Assembly: GCA_006738865.1 (NCBI GenBank)
Contig: AP019701.1
Location: 425,001 to 489,000 of the forward strand
Reading direction: 5' to 3'
DNA: 64,000 nt
Source: Allostella sp. ATCC 35155
Lineage (GTDB): Bacteria > Pseudomonadota > Alphaproteobacteria > ATCC43930 > Allostellaceae
Below are positions 8,547 through 28,229 of the stretch, piece after piece. Positions within the stretch are counted from its first letter, which is position 1, and the number at the start of each line of letters is the position of its first letter. Under the pieces are notes generated by a model that did not search any database, was not told where the DNA came from, and worked only from the letters and a program-made list of their open reading frames with translations. The translations under genes were made by a program, and so were the position numbers.

Positions 8547-10225
8547 GCCAGCTTTCCCCGATCCAGATCGACATCCTGTGGAAGCGTCTGGTCACCGCCG
8601 TCGACGAGGCGGCGACGACACTGGTGCGCGCCTCCTTCTCCAGCGTCATCCGCGACTTCCACGACTATGCCTGCGCCCTCTTCGACCGCCGCGGGCGGAT
8701 GCTGGCGCAATCGACCCATTCGACGCCGGGCCTGCTCGGCATCCTGCCCTTCACCATCCCGGGCTTCCTCGCCCATCCGCTGGCGAAGGAGCTGCGGCCG
8801 GGTGACGTCCTTGTCACCAACGACCCGTGGCTCGCGAGCGGCCATCTCATCGATGTCACCGTCGCGACGCCCGTCTTTCGCGGCGACGAGGTCGTCGGCT
8901 TCGTGCTGTCGGTCGTCCACCATCTCAACATGGGCGGCCGGCTCGCCACGCTGGCGAGCCGCGACGTCTACGAGGAGGGGCTGAAGATCCCGATCCTCCG
9001 CCTGTTCCGCGAAGGGCAGCCGGAGGAGGCCGTGTTCGAGTTCATCCGCGCCAACGTGCGCGAGGGGGGCAAGGTCATCGGCGATCTCCGCGCCCAGGTC
9101 GCAGCCAACGAGGCGGCGGCGCGCAAGCTGCTGGACACCATGGAACTCGCCGGCCTGACCGAGCTGGAGACCCTGGGCGACGAGATTATCAGCCGGTCCG
9201 AGGCGAGCATGCGGGCGGCGATCCGCGAGCTGCCGCCGCTGGAGGTCCACCGCTCGATGCAGCTCCGCGGCGTCGCCGGCTACGAGGAGCCGGTCACGCT
9301 GGCGCTCACGGTCCGCATCCGCGACGGCGAGGTGGAACTCGACTTCGCCGGCACGTCGGCGCAGATCCCGCGCGCGGTCAACGTCACGCTGAACATGACG
9401 CGGTCCTACTCGGTCTATCCGCTGAAGTGCGTGCTCGATCCGGGCATCCCCAACAACGAGGGCTGCCTGCGGCCGATCCGCATCCTGGCGCCGGAGGGCA
9501 GCGTCCTGAACGCCCGCTTCCCGGCGGCGACCTGGGGCCGGACGGTGGTCGCCCACATGCTGCCCGAGCTCATCATCCAGGCCCTGTCCGAGGTCGTGCC
9601 GGGCCGGCTCGTCAGCGGCAGCGGCTCGACGCCGCTCTGGTACGGCAACCTCGCCGGGCGATACCGGGACGGCCGCACCTTCTTTGCCGTCGTGACCATG
9701 AATGGCGGGCTCGGTGCGCGCGCGACCCGGGACGGGATCGGCGCCATCTCCTATCCCGCCAACGTCGCCAACATCCCGGTCGAGGTCATCGAAAGCGATG
9801 CCCCGATCCTCTTCGAGTGCAAGGAACTGGCGCCGGAAGCGGCCGGCGCCGGCCGGCATCGCGGCGGCGCGGGCCAGCGGATCGTGCTGCGCGTGCCGGA
9901 ATCGGCCGCCGAGGAACTGGACGGCACGATCCAGGCGAGCATCCGCGGCGGACGGTTCGGCGTGCCGATCGAAGGGCTGCAGGGCGGCCTGGACGGCGGC
10001 ATCCCCTTCGCGGAGCTGAACGGCCGCCCGGCGCCGCTGGGCTCCTCGTCGGAACTCGCGCCCGGCGACCGGCTGGAACTGGTGGTGCCCGGCGGCGCCG
10101 GGTACGGGCCGCCCTCGGAGCGGGCGACTGCCGATATCGAACGGGACATCGCCGACGAACTGATCGGCGAGGAAGAGGCGCGGCGCCTCTACGGCGACCG
10201 CGCGACCCCGGCGGCTGCGGACTGA
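8543..10225 (+). CDS. Hydantoinase/oxoprolinase family protein, subunit B
   Basis: This 560-residue partner of the upstream HyuA-like subunit starts inside its stop codon (ATGA). Family features include the N-terminal SPIQIDILWKRLVTAVDEA, the metal-site region NDPWLASGHLIDVTV near residue 92, the SVVHHLNMGG stretch, and GSGSTPLWYGN in the C-terminal half. Together the A and B chains form the active ATP-dependent amidohydrolase. The length is normal for the family. There is no signal peptide, so the enzyme acts in the cytoplasm on the compound imported by the TRAP system flanking it. Confidence 0.93.
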   Translation: MSQLSPIQIDILWKRLVTAVDEAATTLVRASFSSVIRDFHDYACALFDRRGRMLAQSTHSTPGLLGILPFTIPGFLAHPLAKELRPGDVLVTNDPWLASGHLIDVTVATPVFRGDEVVGFVLSVVHHLNMGGRLATLASRDVYEEGLKIPILRLFREGQPEEAVFEFIRANVREGGKVIGDLRAQVAANEAAARKLLDTMELAGLTELETLGDEIISRSEASMRAAIRELPPLEVHRSMQLRGVAGYEEPVTLALTVRIRDGEVELDFAGTSAQIPRAVNVTLNMTRSYSVYPLKCVLDPGIPNNEGCLRPIRILAPEGSVLNARFPAATWGRTVVAHMLPELIIQALSEVVPGRLVSGSGSTPLWYGNLAGRYRDGRTFFAVVTMNGGLGARATRDGIGAISYPANVANIPVEVIESDAPILFECKELAPEAAGAGRHRGGAGQRIVLRVPESAAEELDGTIQASIRGGRFGVPIEGLQGGLDGGIPFAELNGRPAPLGSSSELAPGDRLELVVPGGAGYGPPSERATADIERDIADELIGEEEARRLYGDRATPAAAD

Positions 10226-19384: not shown

Positions 19385-19957
19385 ATGGCGAGGGGGGCGA
19401 ACAGCGTCGGCGGGCGTGGCTACACGGCGCCGGCCCGCGGCGCGCATTGGATCACGGCGGCATTGCTGGCGGTGTCGATCCCGCTGGGGCTGGTCATGAC
19501 CCGCATCGAGGGGGACCTCAAGTTCACCCTCTACCACTGGCATGAGTGGATCGGGTTTCTCGTCTGGTGGCTGACGCTCTTCCGGGTGGCCTGGCGCATC
19601 GGCCATCCGCCGCCGCCCCACCGGCCGCCCCTGCCGCGGCTGCAGGCCATCGCCGCGGAATCCGTGCACGGGCTGCTCTATCTCGCCCTTCTCGTCATGC
19701 CGATCGCCGGCTGGATCGGCAATTCGGCATTCGGCTTCCCGCTCGAGCCGTTCGGCCTCTTCCAGCTGCCGGATCTCGTCGCCAAGGACGAGGCGCTGGG
19801 TCGCCGTGTGCTCGATCTCCACGGCTGGGCCGGCTGGGCGGTCATCGTCCTGCTCGCGATGCATGTCGGCGCGGCCCTGCACCATCACTTCGTGGTGGGC
19901 GACGCGACCCTGCGTCGGATGCTGCCGCGGGCGCTCGGCGGGCTGCCACCCGGCTAG
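19385..19957 (+). CDS. Cytochrome b561
   Basis: This 190-residue protein has four transmembrane helices carrying the haem-ligand histidines of bacterial cytochrome b561: ARGAHWITAALLAVS in helix 1, LYHWHEWIGFLVWWL in helix 2, AAESVHGLLYLALLVMPIAG in helix 3 and WAVIVLLAMHVGAALHHHFV in helix 4. These proteins move electrons from quinol, or oxidise superoxide at the membrane surface as shown for CybB. An GAGGAGGGG site precedes the ATG. It converges on the ArsR repressor gene with 10 bp between the stops. Confidence 0.92.
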   Translation: MARGANSVGGRGYTAPARGAHWITAALLAVSIPLGLVMTRIEGDLKFTLYHWHEWIGFLVWWLTLFRVAWRIGHPPPPHRPPLPRLQAIAAESVHGLLYLALLVMPIAGWIGNSAFGFPLEPFGLFQLPDLVAKDEALGRRVLDLHGWAGWAVIVLLAMHVGAALHHHFVVGDATLRRMLPRALGGLPPG

Positions 19958-19967
19958 GCGCCGGAGA

Positions 19968-20324
19968 TCAGGATGCGGGCTGGGGCGGGGGCGGCGCCGC
20001 GCCGCAGGCCGCGTCGGCAACACCCTCCGGAGGTGCGCAGAACGCCGCGTGCAGCGCGCGCATGACGGTCGCTACTTCGGGGCGCGTGATGCGGTAATGG
20101 ACGTTGGTGCCCTCCCGGCGCGCCTCGACCAGCCCGTCGGCGCGCAGGCGCATGAGCTGCTGCGACATCGGCACCTGCTCGATCCCGAGCGCCTGACGCA
20201 GCTCCGCCACCGACCGTTCGCCCTCGACCAGTGCACAGAGCACCAGCAGCCGTTGCGGGTGCGACAGGCTCCGCATCAGGTCGGCCGCCGATTCCGATGC
20301 GGCCTTCATGCTTTCGAAATTCAT
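19968..20324 (-). CDS. ArsR-family repressor with BigR/SqrR-type cysteine pair
   Basis: This 118-residue winged-helix repressor has the core LSHPQRLLVLCALVEGERSV, VPMSQQLMRLRADGLV and REGTNVHYRI. Cys30 and Cys96 are 66 residues apart, exactly the spacing of the redox pair in BigR (Cys42/Cys108) and SqrR (Cys41/Cys107), which form a tri- or tetrasulfide bridge when reactive sulfur is present. No metal-binding CxC motif of arsenic or cadmium sensors is seen. I used the ATG at 20324, since the longer frame would run through the operator. It is divergent from a DUF2892 gene, a partner often found beside such regulators. A role as sulfide/persulfide sensor is therefore a strong inference. Confidence 0.85.
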   Translation of the reverse strand: MNFESMKAASESAADLMRSLSHPQRLLVLCALVEGERSVAELRQALGIEQVPMSQQLMRLRADGLVEARREGTNVHYRITRPEVATVMRALHAAFCAPPEGVADAACGAAPPPPQPAS

Positions 20325-20325
20325 G

Positions 20326-20340
20326 ATATTGAATTTATAT
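20326..20340. promoter_or_regulatory. AT-rich dyad between the repressor and the DUF2892 gene
   Basis: ATATTGAATTTATAT starts just ahead of the repressor ATG in an island of about 30 AT-rich bases (20325–20355), striking in this GC-rich DNA. The four outer bases repeat as ATAT on both sides. It is a suitable operator and −10 region for an ArsR protein controlling both directions. Confidence 0.5.
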
Positions 20341-20422
20341 AGTGTGAATGTTACCTGCAAGACGTCTTCCCGCTGCCGGCCACCCTGGTTGGGCCGCGAG
20401 GGACGGGAGAGGGGAACGGAAT

Positions 20423-20626
20423 ATGACGATCGATCGCGCAGTCCTGATGTTCGCGGGTTTCATGATCCTGGCCTCGCTGGCGCTCGGTTTCTACCTGTCG
20501 CCCTGGTGGTATCTGCTCACCGCCTTCGTCGGGGTCAACCTGATCCAAGCCTCGGTCACGGGCTTCTGCCCGGCGGCGATGGTGTTCAAGGCGCTGGGCG
20601 TCCGCTCGGGCCGTGCCTTCGACTAG
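20423..20626 (+). CDS. DUF2892 membrane protein (YgaP transmembrane domain-like)
   Basis: This 67-residue protein consists of two hydrophobic segments, AVLMFAGFMILASLALGFYL and WWYLLTAFVGVNLIQASVTG, ending in GFCPAAMVFKALGVR. This is the DUF2892 pattern with its conserved G-F-C-P. The same domain forms the membrane part of the rhodanese YgaP and is commonly found beside BigR/YgaV-type repressors, as here. The ATG at 20423 follows GAGAGGGGAAC. It leads a plus-strand run into the RND adaptor gene, suggesting a reactive-sulfur-controlled operon. Confidence 0.85.
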   Translation: MTIDRAVLMFAGFMILASLALGFYLSPWWYLLTAFVGVNLIQASVTGFCPAAMVFKALGVRSGRAFD

Positions 20627-20660
20627 CTGCGCCGCAGCCTTGAGAAAGGTCCGACCGTCG

Positions 20661-21719
20661 ATGGTTCTGCTGCCCATGTTCCGGCAACGCGTCTCGCGGC
20701 CGGGCGTCCGGCCTGCCACGGCGATCCTGGCATTGCTGGCGGCGCTCTCCGCCGGCGGTGCCGGGGCGGCCGAGTTCGTCGTCACGCCCGTCACCGTCAC
20801 CGAGATGAAGGCCGTCTTCGGCCGCGTCGAGAGCCGGATCGTGGTCCCCGCCCGCGCCCGCATCGGCGGCTCGGTCCGCGAGATCCGCATCGCCGAGGGC
20901 GACGAGGTCGCGGTCGGCCAGGTCGTCGCCGTCGTCGTCGACGAGAAGCTGGCGCTCCAGCTCGATGCTGCCGACGCCAAGCTCGAGGCCCTCAACTCCC
21001 AGCTCCGCAATGCGCGCATCGAGCTCGAGCGCTCGCAACAGCTCCGCGCCTCCGGCACCGGCACCCAGTCCCGGCTCGATCAGGCCCGGATGCAGTACGA
21101 GGTCGCCGCCAACCAGGTGGCCGCCGCCCGGGCCGAAAAGGCGGTGGTCGAGCAGAGTGCCCGGGAAGGCGCGGTCTTCGCCCCCGCCGCCGGCCGGGTG
21201 CTCACGGTCCCGGTGACGCTGGGCTCGGTCGCCCTGCCGGGCGAGGAGATCGCGCGCATCGCGCCCGGGCCCTATCATCTGCGCCTCTCCCTGCCCGAGC
21301 GGCATGCCGCGGAGATCGTCCGCGGCGCGGACGTCGTCGTCGGCGCGCGCGGGCTGGCCCAGCCGGTCGGGCAGCGCGTGAGCCCCCGGACCACCCCTGC
21401 CATCACTGGGCGCATCGTCAAGGTCTATCCCGAGATCGCCGACGGCCGGGTGATCGCCGACGTCGATGTCGCCGGCATCGGCGACTACTTCGTCAACGAG
21501 CGCATGCTGGTGTCGGTCCCGGTCGGCAAGCGCAGCGTGCTGGCGGTGCCGCCAGAGGCGGTGCGCACGGTGCACGGGGTCGACTATGTGCGGCTGGCGA
21601 CGGCAGCGGGCGGGTCGGACGTGGCCGTGATCCTGGGCGAGACCTTCGCCGAGGGCGGGGCGACCCGGGTCGAGATCCTCTCCGGCCTCCGCGCCGGCGA
21701 CCGGGTCGTGCTGCCATGA
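20661..21719 (+). CDS. RND efflux periplasmic adaptor (membrane fusion protein)
   Basis: This 352-residue protein has a signal/anchor segment (ATAILALLAALSAGGAGAAEF), a biotinyl-lipoyl half-motif (GGSVREIRIAEGDEVAVGQVV), a coiled hairpin rich in Ala/Glu/Arg (about residues 95–165), the second lipoyl half (VFAPAAGRVLTVPVTLGSVA) and beta-barrel/proximal domains. It links an inner-membrane RND pump to an outer-membrane channel. It overlaps the pump gene by 4 nt (ATGA). The start at 20661 has GAGAAAGGT upstream, and the alternative upstream start adds a non-family leader. No outer-membrane factor gene is in the window. Confidence 0.92.
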   Translation: MVLLPMFRQRVSRPGVRPATAILALLAALSAGGAGAAEFVVTPVTVTEMKAVFGRVESRIVVPARARIGGSVREIRIAEGDEVAVGQVVAVVVDEKLALQLDAADAKLEALNSQLRNARIELERSQQLRASGTGTQSRLDQARMQYEVAANQVAAARAEKAVVEQSAREGAVFAPAAGRVLTVPVTLGSVALPGEEIARIAPGPYHLRLSLPERHAAEIVRGADVVVGARGLAQPVGQRVSPRTTPAITGRIVKVYPEIADGRVIADVDVAGIGDYFVNERMLVSVPVGKRSVLAVPPEAVRTVHGVDYVRLATAAGGSDVAVILGETFAEGGATRVEILSGLRAGDRVVLP

Positions 21720-24700
21720 GGCTGGGAATCGCCGGCGGGCTGACGCGCGTCTTCGCCGTCTCGCCCCTGACGCCGCTCTTCCTGCTGGCGGCGCTGGCAC
21801 TGGGAGTGGTGGCGTTGCTCGGCCTGCCGCGCGAGGAGGAGCCGCAGATCTCCGTGCCGATGGTCGACATCCGGGTCGAAGCCAACGGGCTGCGGGCCGA
21901 GGACGCCGTCAAGCTGGTCACCGAGCCGCTCGAGACCATCGTCAAGAGCATCGGCGGCGTCGAGCACGTCTATTCCCAGACCGAGGATGACGGCGCGCTG
22001 GTCACCGCGCGCTTCGCGGTCGGCACCAGCGCGGACGCTGCCATCCTGCGGGTGCACGAGAAGATCCGTGCGAACATGGACCGCATCCCGGTCGGTATTC
22101 CCGAGCCGCTGATCGTCGGCCGCGGCATCGACGACGTCGCCATCGTCGTCGTCACCCTGCGCCCGGCGCCGCGGGCCGCCGGGCGGTGGACCGCCAACGA
22201 CCTGACCCGGATTGCCCGGGAACTTCAGGTCGAGATCGCCAAGCTGCCCGACATCGGGCTGACCTACGTCGTCGGCGAACAGCCGGAGCAGTTCCTGGTC
22301 GAGCCCGATCCGGAGAAGCTGTCGCTGTTCGGGATCACCCTGCAACAGCTCGCCGCCAAGCTCGAGGGCGCCAACCGCTCCTTCCGGATCGGCACCGTCC
22401 GCGACCAGGGTGGCCAGCGCGCCATCGTCGCGGGCCAGACGCTGCAGGGGCTGCCGGCGATCGGCAACCTGCTGCTGACGGCACGCGACGGCCGCCCGGT
22501 CTATGTCCGCGACGTCGCCGACATCGCCTTGTCGACCGCGCCGGCCGAGCGCCGCGTCAGCGATATCCGCCGGGGCCCGGACGGCCTCGACCGTGCGCCC
22601 GCCGTCTCGCTCGCCATCGCCAAGCGGCCCGGCACCAACGCCGTGATCATTGCCGAGGAGATCGTGCATCGCCTGGACCAGGCGCGGGGGCGGATCTTCC
22701 CGCAGGACGTCGAGATGACGGTCACGCGGAACTATGGCGAGACCGCCGACGCGAAGGCGAACGAGCTGCTGTTCCATCTCGGACTGGCGACGATTTCGAT
22801 CGTCGTCCTGGTCGGGTTCGCGATCGGCTGGCGGGCGGCGCTGGTGGTGGCGGTGGTCATCCCGACGACGATCCTGCTGACGCTCTTCGCCGCCTGGATC
22901 ATGGGCTACACCCTGAACCGCGTCAGCCTCTTCGCCCTGATATTCTCCATCGGCATCCTCGTCGACGACGCCATCGTCGTCATTGAGAATATCGCCCGCC
23001 ATTGGGCCATGGGAGACGGCCGCTCGCGCCTGCAGGGCGTCGTCGACGCCGTCGCCGAGGTCGGAAACCCGACCATCGTCGCTACGCTCACGGTGATCGC
23101 CGCCCTGCTGCCGATGCTGTTCGTCTCCGGGATGATGGGCCCCTACATGAGCCCGATCCCGGCCAACGCGTCGGCCGCGATGCTGTTCTCGTTCTTCGTC
23201 GCGGTGATGCTGACCCCCTGGCTGATGCTCCGGATCGGCGGAGGAGGGGCTGCGGCGGCGCACGACCCGGCGGCGGCGGCCGGCGGCCGGCTCGGCCGGC
23301 TCTATGTCGCGGTCGCGGCGCCGATCCTGGCCAGCCGTGCCCGCTCCTGGACGTTCCTGCTCGTGGTCGGCTTCACGACGCTCGCCTCGCTGGGGCTCCT
23401 CTACACCCGTGACGTCACGGTCAAGCTGCTGCCGTTCGACAACAAGTCCGATCTCCAGGTGGTGGTGGATCTGCCGAAGGGCGCGTCGGTGGAGGATACC
23501 GACCGTACCCTGCAGGCGGTGGTCGACGGTCTTGCCGCAGTGCCGGAGATCGTCTCGTTCCAGACCTATGCCGGCACCGCGGCGCCCTTCGACTTCAACG
23601 GGCTGGTGCGCCACTACTATCTGCGCACCGGCCCCGAGCAGGGGCAGGTCGCGGTCAACCTGTCGCCCAAGGGCGAGCGCGAACGGCCGAGCCACGCGGT
23701 TGCCCTCGACATGCGCCGGCGCCTGGGCGCCCTGTCGCTGCCGGCGGGCACCGTGCTCAAGGTGGTCGAGCCGCCGCCGGGGCCGCCCGTCATCGGCACC
23801 CTCCTCGCGGAGATCTACGGTCCCGACCCGGAGACGCGGCGGGCCGTCGCCGCAGGCGTGCGCGCCGCCTTCGAGAGCGTGCCCTTCGTCGTCGATATCG
23901 ACGACAGCTATCGCAACCGGCCGGAGCGCGTCCGCGTCGCCATCAACCAGGACAATCTCGAATACCGCCAGGTCGAACAGTCCGACGTGTACGATACGCT
24001 GCGCTACCTCTATGCGGGCGCCACCGTCGGCTATTCCCATCGCGGCGAGGGTCGCCAGCCGATCCCGATCCGGATCGCGCTGTCGAAGAAGGGGGGCACG
24101 GTCGGCGAGCGCGTGCTGGCGACGCCCGTCCCGGCGAATGCGCTGCCCGGCGGCCGCGGCGTGGTCGAACTCGGCGACGTCGTGGAGATCCGGCGCGAGC
24201 CGGCCTCCTGGCCGATCTTCCGGCACAATGGCCGGGCTGCCGAGATGGTGATGGCCGAGCTCGCCGGGGCCTACGAGGCGCCGATCTACGGCATGCTCGC
24301 CGTCGCGGAGGCGATCGAGCGCGCCGACTGGGGCGACGTGCCGAAGCCCGTGATCGCGCTCCACGGCCAGCCCGACGACGAAAGCCGCCCGACGCTGCTC
24401 TGGGACGGCGAGTGGGAGGTGACCTGGGTCACCTTCCGCGACATGGGCGCGGCCTTCATGGTGGCGATCCTCGGCATCTATATCCTGGTCGTCGCGCAGT
24501 TCGGATCGTTCAAGGTGCCGCTCGTCATCCTGACGCCGATCCCGCTCACCTTCATCGGCATCCTCGGCGGGCACTGGCTGTTCGGCGCACCGTTCACCGC
24601 GACCTCGATGATCGGCTTCATCGCGCTCGCCGGCATCATCGTGCGCAACTCGATCCTGCTGGCGGACTTCATCCGCCATGCGCGCACCCCCGGCCGGCCG

Positions 24701-24904
24701 CTGGTCGAGGTGCTGCTCGAAGCGGGCGCGATCCGCTTCAAGCCGATCCTGCTGACGGCGCTCGCCGCCATGATCGGCGCCGCGGTGATCCTGGCCGATC
24801 CGATCTTCCAGGGCCTGGCCATCGCGCTTCTCTTCGGTCTCGTCTCCTCGACCCTGCTGACAGTGCTCGTCATTCCCGCGATCTATCGCGTGCTGCGGAG
24901 CTGA
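21716..24904 (+). CDS. RND-family efflux pump permease
   Basis: This 1062-residue protein has the AcrB-like layout. There is a first membrane helix (FLLAALALGVVALLGL), a large periplasmic loop, helices 2–6 with the conserved proton-relay region SIGILVDDAIVVIENIARHW (about residues 411–430), a second loop and helices 8–12 (MIGFIALAGIIVRNSILLADFI). It exports hydrophobic or toxic compounds by proton antiport with the upstream adaptor. The sequence resembles the HAE1-type branch with short loops rather than the CusA metal pumps, but the substrate is not evident. The operon context with the sulfur-sensing repressor is unusual. Confidence 0.93.
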   Translation: MRLGIAGGLTRVFAVSPLTPLFLLAALALGVVALLGLPREEEPQISVPMVDIRVEANGLRAEDAVKLVTEPLETIVKSIGGVEHVYSQTEDDGALVTARFAVGTSADAAILRVHEKIRANMDRIPVGIPEPLIVGRGIDDVAIVVVTLRPAPRAAGRWTANDLTRIARELQVEIAKLPDIGLTYVVGEQPEQFLVEPDPEKLSLFGITLQQLAAKLEGANRSFRIGTVRDQGGQRAIVAGQTLQGLPAIGNLLLTARDGRPVYVRDVADIALSTAPAERRVSDIRRGPDGLDRAPAVSLAIAKRPGTNAVIIAEEIVHRLDQARGRIFPQDVEMTVTRNYGETADAKANELLFHLGLATISIVVLVGFAIGWRAALVVAVVIPTTILLTLFAAWIMGYTLNRVSLFALIFSIGILVDDAIVVIENIARHWAMGDGRSRLQGVVDAVAEVGNPTIVATLTVIAALLPMLFVSGMMGPYMSPIPANASAAMLFSFFVAVMLTPWLMLRIGGGGAAAAHDPAAAAGGRLGRLYVAVAAPILASRARSWTFLLVVGFTTLASLGLLYTRDVTVKLLPFDNKSDLQVVVDLPKGASVEDTDRTLQAVVDGLAAVPEIVSFQTYAGTAAPFDFNGLVRHYYLRTGPEQGQVAVNLSPKGERERPSHAVALDMRRRLGALSLPAGTVLKVVEPPPGPPVIGTLLAEIYGPDPETRRAVAAGVRAAFESVPFVVDIDDSYRNRPERVRVAINQDNLEYRQVEQSDVYDTLRYLYAGATVGYSHRGEGRQPIPIRIALSKKGGTVGERVLATPVPANALPGGRGVVELGDVVEIRREPASWPIFRHNGRAAEMVMAELAGAYEAPIYGMLAVAEAIERADWGDVPKPVIALHGQPDDESRPTLLWDGEWEVTWVTFRDMGAAFMVAILGIYILVVAQFGSFKVPLVILTPIPLTFIGILGGHWLFGAPFTATSMIGFIALAGIIVRNSILLADFIRHARTPGRPLVEVLLEAGAIRFKPILLTALAAMIGAAVILADPIFQGLAIALLFGLVSSTLLTVLVIPAIYRVLRS

Positions 24905-25019: not shown

Positions 25020-26297
25020 TTGGCAGTGCAGACTTCCCCTGGCGCAGACACCGGTCCGTCCCTCCCGCCGCCGCGCGGCCGCAGCGCCGGCCGGTTCGTC
25101 GCCCGTCGGTGGCGGTGGCTGGGGCTGCTCGCCGTGCTCGCGGGCGCCGCCGCCTGGGCGCTGCCGCAATGGCTGGTCGGTCCCGAGGTGGCGGTCCATA
25201 CCGTCGTGCGCGGCGAGCTGGTCCACAGCATCGTGGCGACCGGCCATGTCGAGACTCCCTACCGCGTGGAGATCGGCAGCCAGATCACCGGCACGGTGAA
25301 GGACGTGCTGGTGGAGGAGGGGGAGCGGGTGCGCCCCGGCCAGCCGCTGATCGTCCTCGACGCGACCGAACTCGATGCGGCGGTGGCGGCGGCGGAGGGC
25401 GCGGTCGCCCAGGCCGAGGCGCGGCTGCGCCAGATGCGCGAGCTGACCCGGCCCGCCGCCGAGGAGGCACAGAAGCAGGCGCGCGCCAACCTGGAGAATG
25501 CGCGCGTCGCCTACGATCGCGCGGCCCGGCTCGCCCGGTCCGGCAGCGGGACGCAGGCGACGCTGGACGAGGCGACGCGCGCCCTCAACGTCGCCCAGGC
25601 CGCCATGCGCACGGCCGAGCTCCAGGTCTACACGTCCGCTCCCGGCGGCAGCGACTACGTCATGGCCGAGACCCAGCTCGGCCAGGCCCGAGCCAACCTC
25701 GCCACGGCCCGCGCCCGCCGCGGCTACGCCACCATCGCCGCGCCTCGCGACGGCACGCTCATCACCCGCAGCGTCGAGCGCGGCACGGTGGTGCAGCCGG
25801 GCAAGGCGCTGCTGGTCCTGGCCCCCGCCGGCGACATGCAACTCGTCGTCCAGATCGACGAGCGCAACCTGAGCCTGCTCGCGCTGGGCCAGGAAGCTCT
25901 GGCGTCGGCCGACGCCTATCCCGACCGGCGCTTTCCTGCCGTCCTGCGCTACATCAACCCCGCGGTCGACATCGCGCGGGCCTCGGTCGAGGTCAAGCTC
26001 CAGGTGCCCGATCCACCCGACTACCTGCGGCAGGACATGACGGTTTCGGTCGACATCGCCGTCGACCGCCGGCCGGATGCCGTCGTGGCGCCGACCCGCG
26101 CCATCCATGACATGGCCTCCGGTTCGCCCTGGGTGCTGGTGGTGCGGGACGGGCGCGCCCAGCGGCAGCCGGTCCGTCTCGGCCTGCGGGCGATGGACCA
26201 GGTGCAGATCCTGGAGGGCCTCGCCCCGGGCGAGGCGGTCCTGCCGCTGACCTCGGGCGTCGCCGCCGGCCAGCCGATCCGCCCGGTCGCGCCATGA
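25020..26297 (+). CDS. MacA-like periplasmic adaptor of an ABC efflux system
   Basis: This 425-residue protein has a single N-terminal membrane anchor (WLGLLAVLAGAAAWALPQWL). Two lipoyl halves follow (YRVEIGSQITGTVKDVLVEE and YATIAAPRDGTLITRS), with a helical hairpin between them (about residues 115–220) and a C-terminal barrel domain. It is MacA/HlyD-like and overlaps the permease gene by 4 nt, as in macAB. The start is taken as TTG at 25020, placed 6 nt after AAGGAGGAA; a GTG at 25026 is possible. It would couple the ABC transporter to an outer-membrane channel. Confidence 0.9.
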   Translation: MAVQTSPGADTGPSLPPPRGRSAGRFVARRWRWLGLLAVLAGAAAWALPQWLVGPEVAVHTVVRGELVHSIVATGHVETPYRVEIGSQITGTVKDVLVEEGERVRPGQPLIVLDATELDAAVAAAEGAVAQAEARLRQMRELTRPAAEEAQKQARANLENARVAYDRAARLARSGSGTQATLDEATRALNVAQAAMRTAELQVYTSAPGGSDYVMAETQLGQARANLATARARRGYATIAAPRDGTLITRSVERGTVVQPGKALLVLAPAGDMQLVVQIDERNLSLLALGQEALASADAYPDRRFPAVLRYINPAVDIARASVEVKLQVPDPPDYLRQDMTVSVDIAVDRRPDAVVAPTRAIHDMASGSPWVLVVRDGRAQRQPVRLGLRAMDQVQILEGLAPGEAVLPLTSGVAAGQPIRPVAP

Positions 26298-27520
26298 ACC
26301 GGTGGCTGCCGTTCGAATGGATCGCCGCCCTGCGGTTCCTCGCCGAGGGCCGTATGCAGACGGTGTTCATCCTCGGCGGCGTCACCATCGGCGTCGGCGT
26401 CATCGTGTTCATGTCGGCGATGCTGGCGGGGCTGCAGGCCAACTTCATCCGCCGGGTGCTCACCTCGCAGCCGCAGATCCAGCTCCTCCCGCGGGAGGAG
26501 GCGGCGCGACCGCTGCGCGCCGTGCGGGGCGTCATCGAAGCTGCGGTGGTGCAGCGGCCGACCCAGCGCATCCTCTCGATCGACCAGTGGCAGGCGATCG
26601 CCGCGGCGGTGCGCGCCCGGCCCGATGTCCTGGTGGTGGCGCCGACCGTCGCCGGGTCGGCGCTGGCCGTCCGCGGCGACGCCAGCCGCAGCATCTCGGT
26701 CGTCGGCATGGATCCCGCCCAGTATTTCCGGATCGTGCGGGTGCCCGACTATCTGGTGGCCGGCGAGGCGCGGCTCGGCACCGACGACATCGTCGTCGGT
26801 TCGGAGCTGGCGCGGAATCTGGGTGCGGGCGTCGGCGACAGGATCAACGTCACCACCGCCCGCGGCGGCCAGCGCACGCTCACGGTCACCGGCATCGTCG
26901 ATTTCGGCAACAAGGGCGCGAACGAGCGCAGCACTTATGTCGCCCTGCGGACCGCGCAGAGCCTGCTCGACCTCGTCGGCGGCGCCACCACCATCGACGT
27001 CACCGTCGCGGATATCTACGCGGCCGATGTGATCGCGCGCGACATTGCCGGGATGGCACCCGTCAAGGCGGACAGCTGGATCACCACCAACGCGCAGTTC
27101 TTCACGGCCGTGCGGGCACAGCAGACCTCCAACACCCTGATCCGCCTGTTCGTCGGCCTGTCGGTGGCCTTCGGGATCGCGGCCGTCCTTGTCGTCTCGG
27201 TCATCCAGCGCTCGAAGGACATCGGTATCCTGCGCGCGATGGGCGCATCGCGCGGGCGCATCCTGCGGATCTTCCTGGTCCAGGGCGGCGTGCTGGGCTT
27301 CGCCGGATCGGTTCTCGGTTCGGTGCTGGGTGCCGGTTCCCTGTTCCTCTGGCATCGCTGGTTTCGCCAGGCGGACGGGTCGGAGCTGTTTCCGCTGGTC
27401 CTGACCGCCGACCTCTTCGCCGCCGCCGCCATGTTGGCCGCGCTGACGGGAGTTCTCGCCGCCCTCGCGCCCGCGGTCCGTGCCGCCAGCATCGACCCGG
27501 TGGATGCGATCCGTGGCTGA
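26294..27520 (+). CDS. MacB-like ABC transporter permease (FtsX domain)
   Basis: This 408-residue protein has one N-terminal helix ([19 protein letters not shown]), a large periplasmic MacB-core domain (about residues 45–280) and three C-terminal helices. One of these is [19 protein letters not shown], followed by the conserved cytoplasmic loop [20 protein letters not shown]. The ATPase is encoded separately just downstream, unlike E. coli MacB where it is fused. It would be a mechanotransmission-type exporter of lipids, peptides or small molecules. It is preceded by the adaptor with a 4-nt overlap and its stop overlaps the ATPase start. Confidence 0.92.
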
Positions 27521-28229
27521 AATCCTCGTCCTGGAGGCGGTGCGCAAGTCCTACGGCATCGGCACGCCGGTCGAGACCGAGGTGCTGCACGGCATCGACC
27601 TCGCCGTCCGGGCCGGCGAGTTCCTGGCCATCATCGGGCCCTCCGGTTCCGGCAAGAGCACGCTGCTCAACATCATCGGCCTGCTCGACCGCCCGACCTC
27701 CGGCCGGCTGGTCATCGACGGGACGGACACGACGGGACTGGGCGACGGCGACCGCACCCGCCTTCGCGGTCGCACCATCGGATTCGTCTTCCAGCATCAC
27801 TACCTCATCTCCGCCTTCACGGCGCTTGAGAACGTGATGATGCCGATGATCGTGGACCGCGGCCGCGCAGATCCGGCGATGGCCCGCCGCGCGGAGGAGC
27901 TGCTCGGGTGGATGGACCTCGAGCGCTGGCGGAACAACCGCGTCAACAACCTCTCCGGCGGCCAGCAGCAGCGGGTCGCGGTCGCCCGGGCACTGGCCCT
28001 CGACCCTCCGCTGGTGCTGGCCGACGAGCCGACGGGAAACCTCGACACCGCCGCGGCCGAGGGCGTCTTCGCGCGGATGCGCCGGATCAACCGGGAGCGC
28101 GGAACCACCTTCCTCCTCGTCACCCACAATCTCGCACTGGCCGAGCGGTGCGACCGCATCGTCGAGGTCGTGGACGGCCGGATCGCTGCCGAGCCTGCGG
28201 GCGCCCATGCCGGGCCCGCTGCCGGCTGA
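27513..28229 (+). CDS. ABC transporter ATP-binding protein (LolD/MacB type)
   Basis: This 238-residue ATPase has Walker [14 protein letters not shown]-loop [12 protein letters not shown], signature [15 protein letters not shown], Walker [12 protein letters not shown] and the switch histidine in VTHN. The signature and D-loop style match the LolD/MacB/FtsE group. The GTG at 27513 overlaps the permease stop by 8 nt, which fits translational coupling; the longer frame reading from 27480 lies inside the permease gene. It powers the adaptor/permease pair upstream to make a three-gene exporter. Confidence 0.93.

Follow-up and report, generated by a model that had tools for sequence, protein, structure and literature searches.

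The window, a 64,000-nucleotide stretch of the Allostella sp. ATCC 35155 genome, encodes a small ArsR repressor that very probably senses reactive sulfur and that likely controls the adjoining efflux pump. The genes and sites involved are given in Table 1. We consider it quite probable that they belong to a small SqrR-type regulon, in which an ArsR protein released by sulfur controls the DUF2892-adaptor-RND genes and, in trans, a trxC-SQR operon, with the pump clearing a product of sulfide stress. Comparison with related loci further suggests that this type of pump is a standard partner of SQR and that the window holds a trimmed form of a larger operon.

Table 1. Features of the repressor-pump locus; positions are those of the window.
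Feature	Position	Strand	Evidence
SqrR/BigR-type ArsR repressor, 118 aa, Cys30/Cys96/Cys107	19968..20324	-	profile, structure-sequence match, alignment, model
Sigma-70-like promoter TCGAAA-18-TATAGT for the DUF2892-adaptor-RND transcript	20314..20343	+	consensus match only
Predicted SqrR-type operator ATTCATGATATTGAAT (ATTC-N8-GAAT), overlapping the ArsR start codon	20319..20334		exact consensus match
YgaP-type membrane protein (DUF2892), 67 aa, Cys49 in GFCP	20423..20626	+	PF11127 YgaP-like_TM, 43.9 bits, cut-off 25.3
RND periplasmic adaptor	20613..21719	+	TIGR01730, 104.5 bits, cut-off 94.9; annotated from GTG 20613
RND permease, 1062 aa, no cysteine	21716..24904	+	PF00873, 444.5 bits, cut-off 28

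The ArsR gene most likely starts at the ATG at 20324, which gives the 118-aa protein; a longer ORF would begin at the TTG at 20360. The original prediction that this protein carries cysteines 66 residues apart, as do BigR and SqrR, held: Cys30 and Cys96 have exactly this spacing, and in printed sequence alignments both align with cysteines of BigR, SqrR and HlyU. Cys107 is an extra cysteine inside the low-confidence tail of the AF2 model, which was built from 24 sequences and has a mean pLDDT of 81.7, with residues 98-113 below 50. The protein matches PF01022 (31.2 bits, cut-off 22) and the ArsR/SmtB metalloregulator profile NF033788 (75.7 bits, cut-off 55), and scores 91 bits against the NCBIfam BigR equivalog NF040642, under its curated cut-off of 155; we therefore class it as a member of the SqrR-type subfamily rather than as BigR. 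Its nearest solved structures by sequence are BigR (3pqj, 1e-22), SqrR (6o8k, 3.7e-21) and HlyU (4k2e, 9.7e-16), and a structure match of the model puts SqrR on top, with 6o8k ahead of the tetrasulfide form 6o8n, followed by BigR, HlyU and YgaV, with SmtB and CzrA lower. The protein thus combines three features of the SqrR/BigR/YgaV/HlyU-type reactive-sulfur ArsR subfamily: a winged helix closest to SqrR/BigR, cysteines (C30/C96) at the positions of SqrR C41/C107, and an ATTC-N8-GAAT site (20319-20334) at its own promoter. Taking sequence, modelled fold, operator and genomic company together, its predicted role as a reactive-sulfur sensor is well supported, as had been proposed.

Both cysteines are invariant in 24 aligned ArsR proteins (22 picked from 72 related loci and two from the Allostella genome). 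These loci come from a pattern-based scan of 84,980 species with one genome per species, which is a sample and not a census. The spacing is exactly 66 in 67/72 of them, a count biased towards the first cysteine, which lies within LCALVEGE, one of the six search patterns. Three loci (L056, L059, L060) keep both cysteines with a one-residue insertion between them, and the pair is absent from the ArsR of L079 and L080. Eleven proteins of the Allostella genome match PF01022; none exceeds the BigR profile cut-off, two stand out on that profile (92.0 and 90.9 bits, the next reaching 39.8), and both of these have the 66 spacing. On this sequence comparison, the cysteine pair is not a chance feature.

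The deduced SqrR site is quoted as ATTC-N8-GAAT (PMC9774250; papers are cited here by PMC number, those marked ‘excerpt’ for the portions available, as in this case). The 3' half of the predicted operator overlaps ArsR codons 1-2, and the 5' half is non-coding. The whole site falls inside the promoter-like match at 20314-20343, the only such match in 19900-20700 (mean of shuffles, 0.0). Among 54 clear orthologs of the locus (L009-L062, mostly Hyphomicrobiales, several of them near-identical strains), 51 have the exact operator at this position, and L056, L059 and L060 have it with a single mismatch. Across their 794,591 bases the 54 loci hold 55 exact sites in total, so that four lie outside that position. 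The near-identical strains and the coding overlap of the 3' half call for some caution in reading this conservation. The second ArsR codon is AAT in 55/55 sequences (54 loci and the window).

Nine exact operator sites occur in the 5.34-Mb Allostella genome, and none of a reversed control pattern. One is the site in the window; another, at 1.77 Mb, lies ~90 bp before the likely start of trxC, which is followed by genes for a flavoprotein and a DUF5368 protein; the flavoprotein matches mitochondrial-type SQR structures at 3.6e-74 (type II SQR). Rhodobacter trxC is a member of the SqrR regulon, and in R. capsulatus its transcription rises >20-fold with sulfide or without sqrR, while bridged SqrR is reduced by TrxC (PMC10044876, excerpt). 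Since the Allostella trxC-SQR site was found from the operator alone and shows the same pairing as in R. capsulatus, it gives independent support to the regulon. By heuristic gene calls, five of the remaining seven sites are within predicted genes and two (L091, L095) are intergenic, where the adjoining genes have no evident sulfur role; a gene beside one of these two looks by eye like a glutathione S-transferase. No mention of the operator was found in PMC9143464. The genome also encodes another SqrR-like ArsR whose cysteines are 66 apart (L100 6475-6777, genome position 4.25 Mb); its gene begins only a few bases beyond a flavoprotein gene, and it could serve the trxC-SQR operator instead. 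It was also considered as the regulator of a nearby RND gene and rejected, being 2.4 kb from that pump with two other genes between.

The divergent arrangement of the ArsR and DUF2892 genes, and the assignment of the downstream genes to an RND adaptor and pump, agree with the original prediction (Table 1). The DUF2892, adaptor and RND reading frames overlap in sequence, and the true start of the adaptor may be later than GTG 20613. The DUF2892 protein can be classed as a free-standing YgaP-like transmembrane protein: PF11127 is the sole domain in its 67 residues, and the rhodanese domain expected of a YgaP sulfurtransferase is absent. Its Cys49 is present in 85/85 loci with a match (98 searched), and may correspond to YgaP Cys159, which lies near a thiocyanate site, export of thiocyanate having been proposed (PMC4730233, excerpt).

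The permease belongs to the RND family by its PF00873 score and its proton-relay pair Asp417/Asp418, which together with Arg977 occupy the AcrB proton-relay positions. It reaches neither the CusA/CzcA heavy-metal profile TIGR00914 (229.5 of 701.45 bits) nor the multidrug RND subfamilies NF033617 and NF000282 (361.8 and 297.4 bits; cut-off 1250), and no feature of its sequence identifies the substrate. As it has no cysteine, a thiol relay inside the pump is unlikely. Directly downstream, at 25020-28229, is a MacAB-like cluster of an adaptor, an FtsX-type permease and an ABC ATPase, which was considered as a further component of the locus. The adaptor of this cluster shares just ~26% identity with the post-pump adaptor in a Shinella plasmid and MacB had no match in the 13 loci searched, so the cluster is treated as a neighbour.

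In 51/54 ortholog loci the DUF2892-adaptor-RND genes lie upstream of ArsR in unchanged order; two of the others (L011, L062) end near ArsR, and L046 is without the genes. A gene for a ~430-aa SQR lies between ArsR and DUF2892 in 33 of these 51 clusters (not counting L011, cut by a contig end, which shows a partial SQR). L029 has SQR after the pump, L052 has a remnant and 16 have none. This type I SQR matches SQR structure 3sz0 at 2.3e-141, with Cys127, Cys159 and Cys353 aligned to cysteines of 3sz0. On a tree of 51 pumps (L036 was left out as too short), a Fitch reconstruction, which is not a likelihood test, gives at least 10 changes of SQR state and ‘present’ at the root. When 18 genomes were searched at 1e-60 because their locus lacks an intact SQR gene, a type I SQR was found elsewhere in four, all Xanthobacter, and each relocated copy has an exact operator upstream (4/4); an in-frame TGA suspected in two of these copies is the natural stop, codon 426. 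The other 14/18 have no type I SQR at this threshold, so the pump can exist without this SQR. The Allostella genome has no close copy of it either (best match 25%).

Because SQR is inside 33/51 of the orthologous clusters, the window appears to hold a trimmed version of the operon, with the pump, as far as gene order can tell, a standard partner of SQR. The contrast between oxidation and efflux then dissolves, and the suggestion that this locus performs efflux instead of sulfide oxidation proves misleading: the pump clade is often found beside SQR, DUF2892 and SqrR-like ArsR genes.

To quantify this company, 290 genomes with a completeness of at least 95 were drawn evenly from the class; two candidates per genome were scored, so some homologues may be missed. 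A pump homologue at 1e-200 is present in 28, the window's own included. The neighbourhoods of the 27 others (up to ~8 kb on each side, less at contig ends; tblastn 1e-6) contain DUF2892 in 21/27, a SqrR-like ArsR in 18/27 (spacing 66 in 15, 62 in two and 63 in one) and a type I SQR in 9/27. L160, with a gene that shares 54% identity with the type II SQR of the window's genome, is left out of the last count; L165 (G013), which has all three genes, was outside the draw and is not included. As a control we used, from each of these genomes, the best AcrB-like pump, which could be obtained for 24/27; each of the three genes was nearby in 0/24 (Fisher p for case vs. control: DUF2892, 5e-9; SqrR-like ArsR, 2e-7; SQR, 0.002). 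Four of the 27 neighbourhoods (L146, L153, L155, L164) contain no ArsR, DUF2892 or SQR. The exact operator is not enriched beyond close orthologs (4/27 case vs. 7/24 control regions), and among those four case regions it is well placed only in L138 (before SQR) and L139 (between ArsR and DUF2892). None of the ten other RND pumps of the Allostella genome (nine regions) has DUF2892 or SQR nearby; the second SqrR-like ArsR of the genome lies several genes away in one region, and a partial persulfide-dioxygenase-like gene is at the edge of one (L173).

In a FastTree phylogeny of 95 pumps, the window pump falls in a clade of 61 (support 0.99), apart from 33 control pumps. The clade includes the case-set pumps and, Polaromonas excepted, those of the plasmid set, and reaches gammaproteobacteria and one cyanobacterium, taking in Salinivibrio, Haliea, Vibrio and the cyanobacterium Pseudanabaena. 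Pumps without sulfur neighbours from Flammeovirga, Alloyangia and one Shinella are also inside it, and its deeper branches are weakly supported (0.40 at one node). Cysteine-free pumps make up 45/61 of the clade vs. 1/33 of the controls. An arginine in place of AcrB Lys940 (Arg977) was tried as a clade signature; it is present in 61/61 members and also in Polaromonas and 2/33 control pumps, and is thus not diagnostic. In three loci of Haliea and Kineobactrum (L063, L070, L073) a SqrR-like ArsR directly precedes a same-clade RND gene on the same strand, and DUF2892 was not detected there at 1e-4.

The locus was probably acquired horizontally from Hyphomicrobiales, given that the window pump is 76-86% identical to the L009-L061 orthologs vs. 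59-65% to pumps of its own order, that it is nested among those orthologs in the tree, and that both pump (1e-100) and regulator (1e-20) are missing from 3/3 congeners searched. When the locus was compared with the presumed empty sites of congeners L199 and L200, the cytochrome b561 gene alone could be aligned, so no insertion boundary was set.

From 51 plasmid records with pump homologues, 16 regions were read, of which 12 have DUF2892, ten of these with an annotated ArsR as well. Six plasmid flavoproteins (L126, L128, L129, L130, L131, L136) match type I SQR at 37-68% identity and two match the Allostella type II SQR at 51-52% (L124 from Paracoccus, 52%, and L137 from Agrobacterium). The Paracoccus gene, beside the same pump type, has an exact operator upstream (L124 11205). 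Four of the 16 regions (L122, L127, L133, L134) have no ArsR, DUF2892 or SQR, tblastn included.

In the regulon that we favor, a reduced ArsR dimer would sit on ATTC-N8-GAAT and block its own start region together with the divergent DUF2892-adaptor-RND promoter. With rising persulfide or polysulfide, sulfane sulfur would bridge Cys30 and Cys96 and the repressor would leave the DNA, after which the YgaP-type membrane protein, adaptor and pump would be made. The trxC and type II SQR operon, having the same operator, would be co-induced; SQR would oxidise sulfide, TrxC would reset the repressor, and the pump would remove a product or companion of sulfide stress, such as low-molecular-weight persulfide or sulfane-sulfur species or metal-sulfide complexes. 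The genes, the cysteine pair, the fold match, the position and conservation of the operator and the statistical company of the pump clade are the direct basis of this model, from which we infer operator binding, persulfide release, induction and co-regulation with trxC-SQR.

Signal and cargo could differ, a reading compatible with the sensor part of the model and one that we regard as a distinct, if lesser, possibility: persulfide would be the trigger and the pump would handle another cargo under sulfide stress, such as metal sulfides, quinone derivatives or hydrophobic toxicants. The permease has no cysteine and no sequence feature marking its substrate, and in Azospira an SQR-pump-adaptor operon is highly expressed under H2S-oxidising conditions, yet its deletion left the rate of sulfide oxidation unchanged (PMC5358917, excerpt). 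Against this, the repeated linkage of the pump clade to SQR and YgaP-type transmembrane proteins favors a sulfur-related cargo, though it is no proof of one. It is quite improbable that the ArsR answers Cd, Zn, Cu or organotin and that the pump is a heavy-metal exporter. The NF033788 match (75.7 bits, cut-off 55) fits such a metal or organometal sensor, as do the title of a reference in PMC12423496 (excerpt), which calls E. coli ygaVP a tributyltin-inducible operon, and the co-induction by H2S of Azospira RND pumps and SQR, for which metal-sulfide export was suggested (PMC5358917, excerpt); yet the nearest ArsR relatives are sulfur/redox sensors and not SmtB or CzrA, the pump falls far under the CusA/CzcA cut-off, and the conserved neighbours are SQR and YgaP-type transmembrane genes, with rhodanese or TrxC less often.

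A general thiol-redox or electrophile switch, in which C30-C96 would form a plain disulfide under peroxide or electrophile and the pump would export toxic organics, is also improbable. RND pumps often export organic compounds. A disulfide form of SqrR C9S has moreover been crystallised (6o8o), but the association with SQR, DUF2892, trxC-SQR and a SqrR-type operator argues against such a switch, as does the 0/24 count of such neighbours for matched AcrB-like pumps of the same genomes.

Among known systems, SqrR of Rhodobacter capsulatus shares with the window the ArsR fold, a cysteine pair 66 apart (C41/C107; PMC10044876, excerpt), the ATTC-N8-GAAT site and trxC as a regulon partner. It differs in that the local target in the window is the DUF2892-adaptor-RND operon, with the type II SQR elsewhere in the genome, and in the third cysteine, which is in the C-terminal tail of the window ArsR and at position 9 in SqrR. 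BigR (Xylella/Agrobacterium), which controls the sulfur transferase/dioxygenase Blh (PMC5823870, excerpt), is the best PDB sequence match and has the same cysteine pair, but the window ArsR is under the NCBIfam BigR equivalog cut-off. In E. coli YgaV-YgaP a SqrR-type regulator likewise stands beside a YgaP-type transmembrane domain, although E. coli YgaP has a rhodanese domain and the window protein does not. To our knowledge, that operon has no RND pump. Azospira suillum Dsui_3440-3443 (SQR, efflux pump, RND adaptor) forms one operon highly expressed with H2S (PMC5358917, excerpt) and resembles the orthologous operon in joining pump and SQR, a comparison by gene content and not by clade.

The general idea behind the window locus is already published: one sentence in section 2.1 of a 2025 paper states that RND efflux pumps appear to be among the targets of sulfane-sulfur-responsive ArsR regulators (sHdrR relatives), and clusters of this kind may already be listed in its Table S1 and Figure S2 (PMC12423496, excerpt). 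We found no dedicated description of an SQR-DUF2892-adaptor-RND operon in the literature excerpts covered, which did not extend to supplements. The present analysis adds to this the operator, an ancestral operon that contains SQR, the linkage of one pump clade as measured against matched controls, and a regulon that is split. More tentatively, and slightly short of an even call, we propose that an unnamed, dedicated RND lineage exports reactive sulfur (persulfide, sulfane sulfur or metal complexes), paired with SQR and a YgaP-type cysteine protein. The lineage would usually be under SqrR-type control in Alphaproteobacteria, with gammaproteobacterial and cyanobacterial relatives keeping sulfur-type neighbours (the cyanobacterium with a different ArsR), and would have moved horizontally, the window being a pump-only version with its oxidation arm in trans. 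In our judgement, the routes by which bacteria rid themselves of excess persulfide, oxidation aside, are little known; being able to recognise a pump clade that comes with a sensor and operator of known type would make this question directly testable.

Cysteine spacing varies within the clade. The plasmid ArsR proteins have the 66 spacing in L123, L124, L125, L126, L128 (both copies) and L135, and a spacing of 62 in L129 (9216-9551), L130 (the pump-side copy, 9204-9515) and L131 (9222-9533), these three loci being from Sphingomonas, Asticcacaulis and Novosphingobium. The ArsR of L158 and L159 (62) and L163 (63) in the class sample likewise have the second cysteine earlier than 66. At about one helical turn earlier, spacings of 62/63 possibly reflect a different sensing geometry. 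Neither spacing is present in the other ArsR of L130 or in the two ArsR of L136.

Gene order varies as well. Of four further relatives read, L111, L113 and L114 keep all five genes in differing orders, and L112 has no ArsR or SQR in the stretch read; two others were left out, their pumps being cut by contig ends. The Salinivibrio plasmid (L135) has the order ArsR, RND, adaptor, with DUF2892 and a flavoprotein divergent; its ArsR has the 66 spacing, and the flavoprotein was rejected as an SQR, having no blastp match at 1e-5 to either type. On the Pseudanabaena plasmid (L136), the pump occurs with DUF2892, an SQR homologue and a rhodanese, and both ArsR are without the cysteine pair; another type of regulator may serve the same gene set there.
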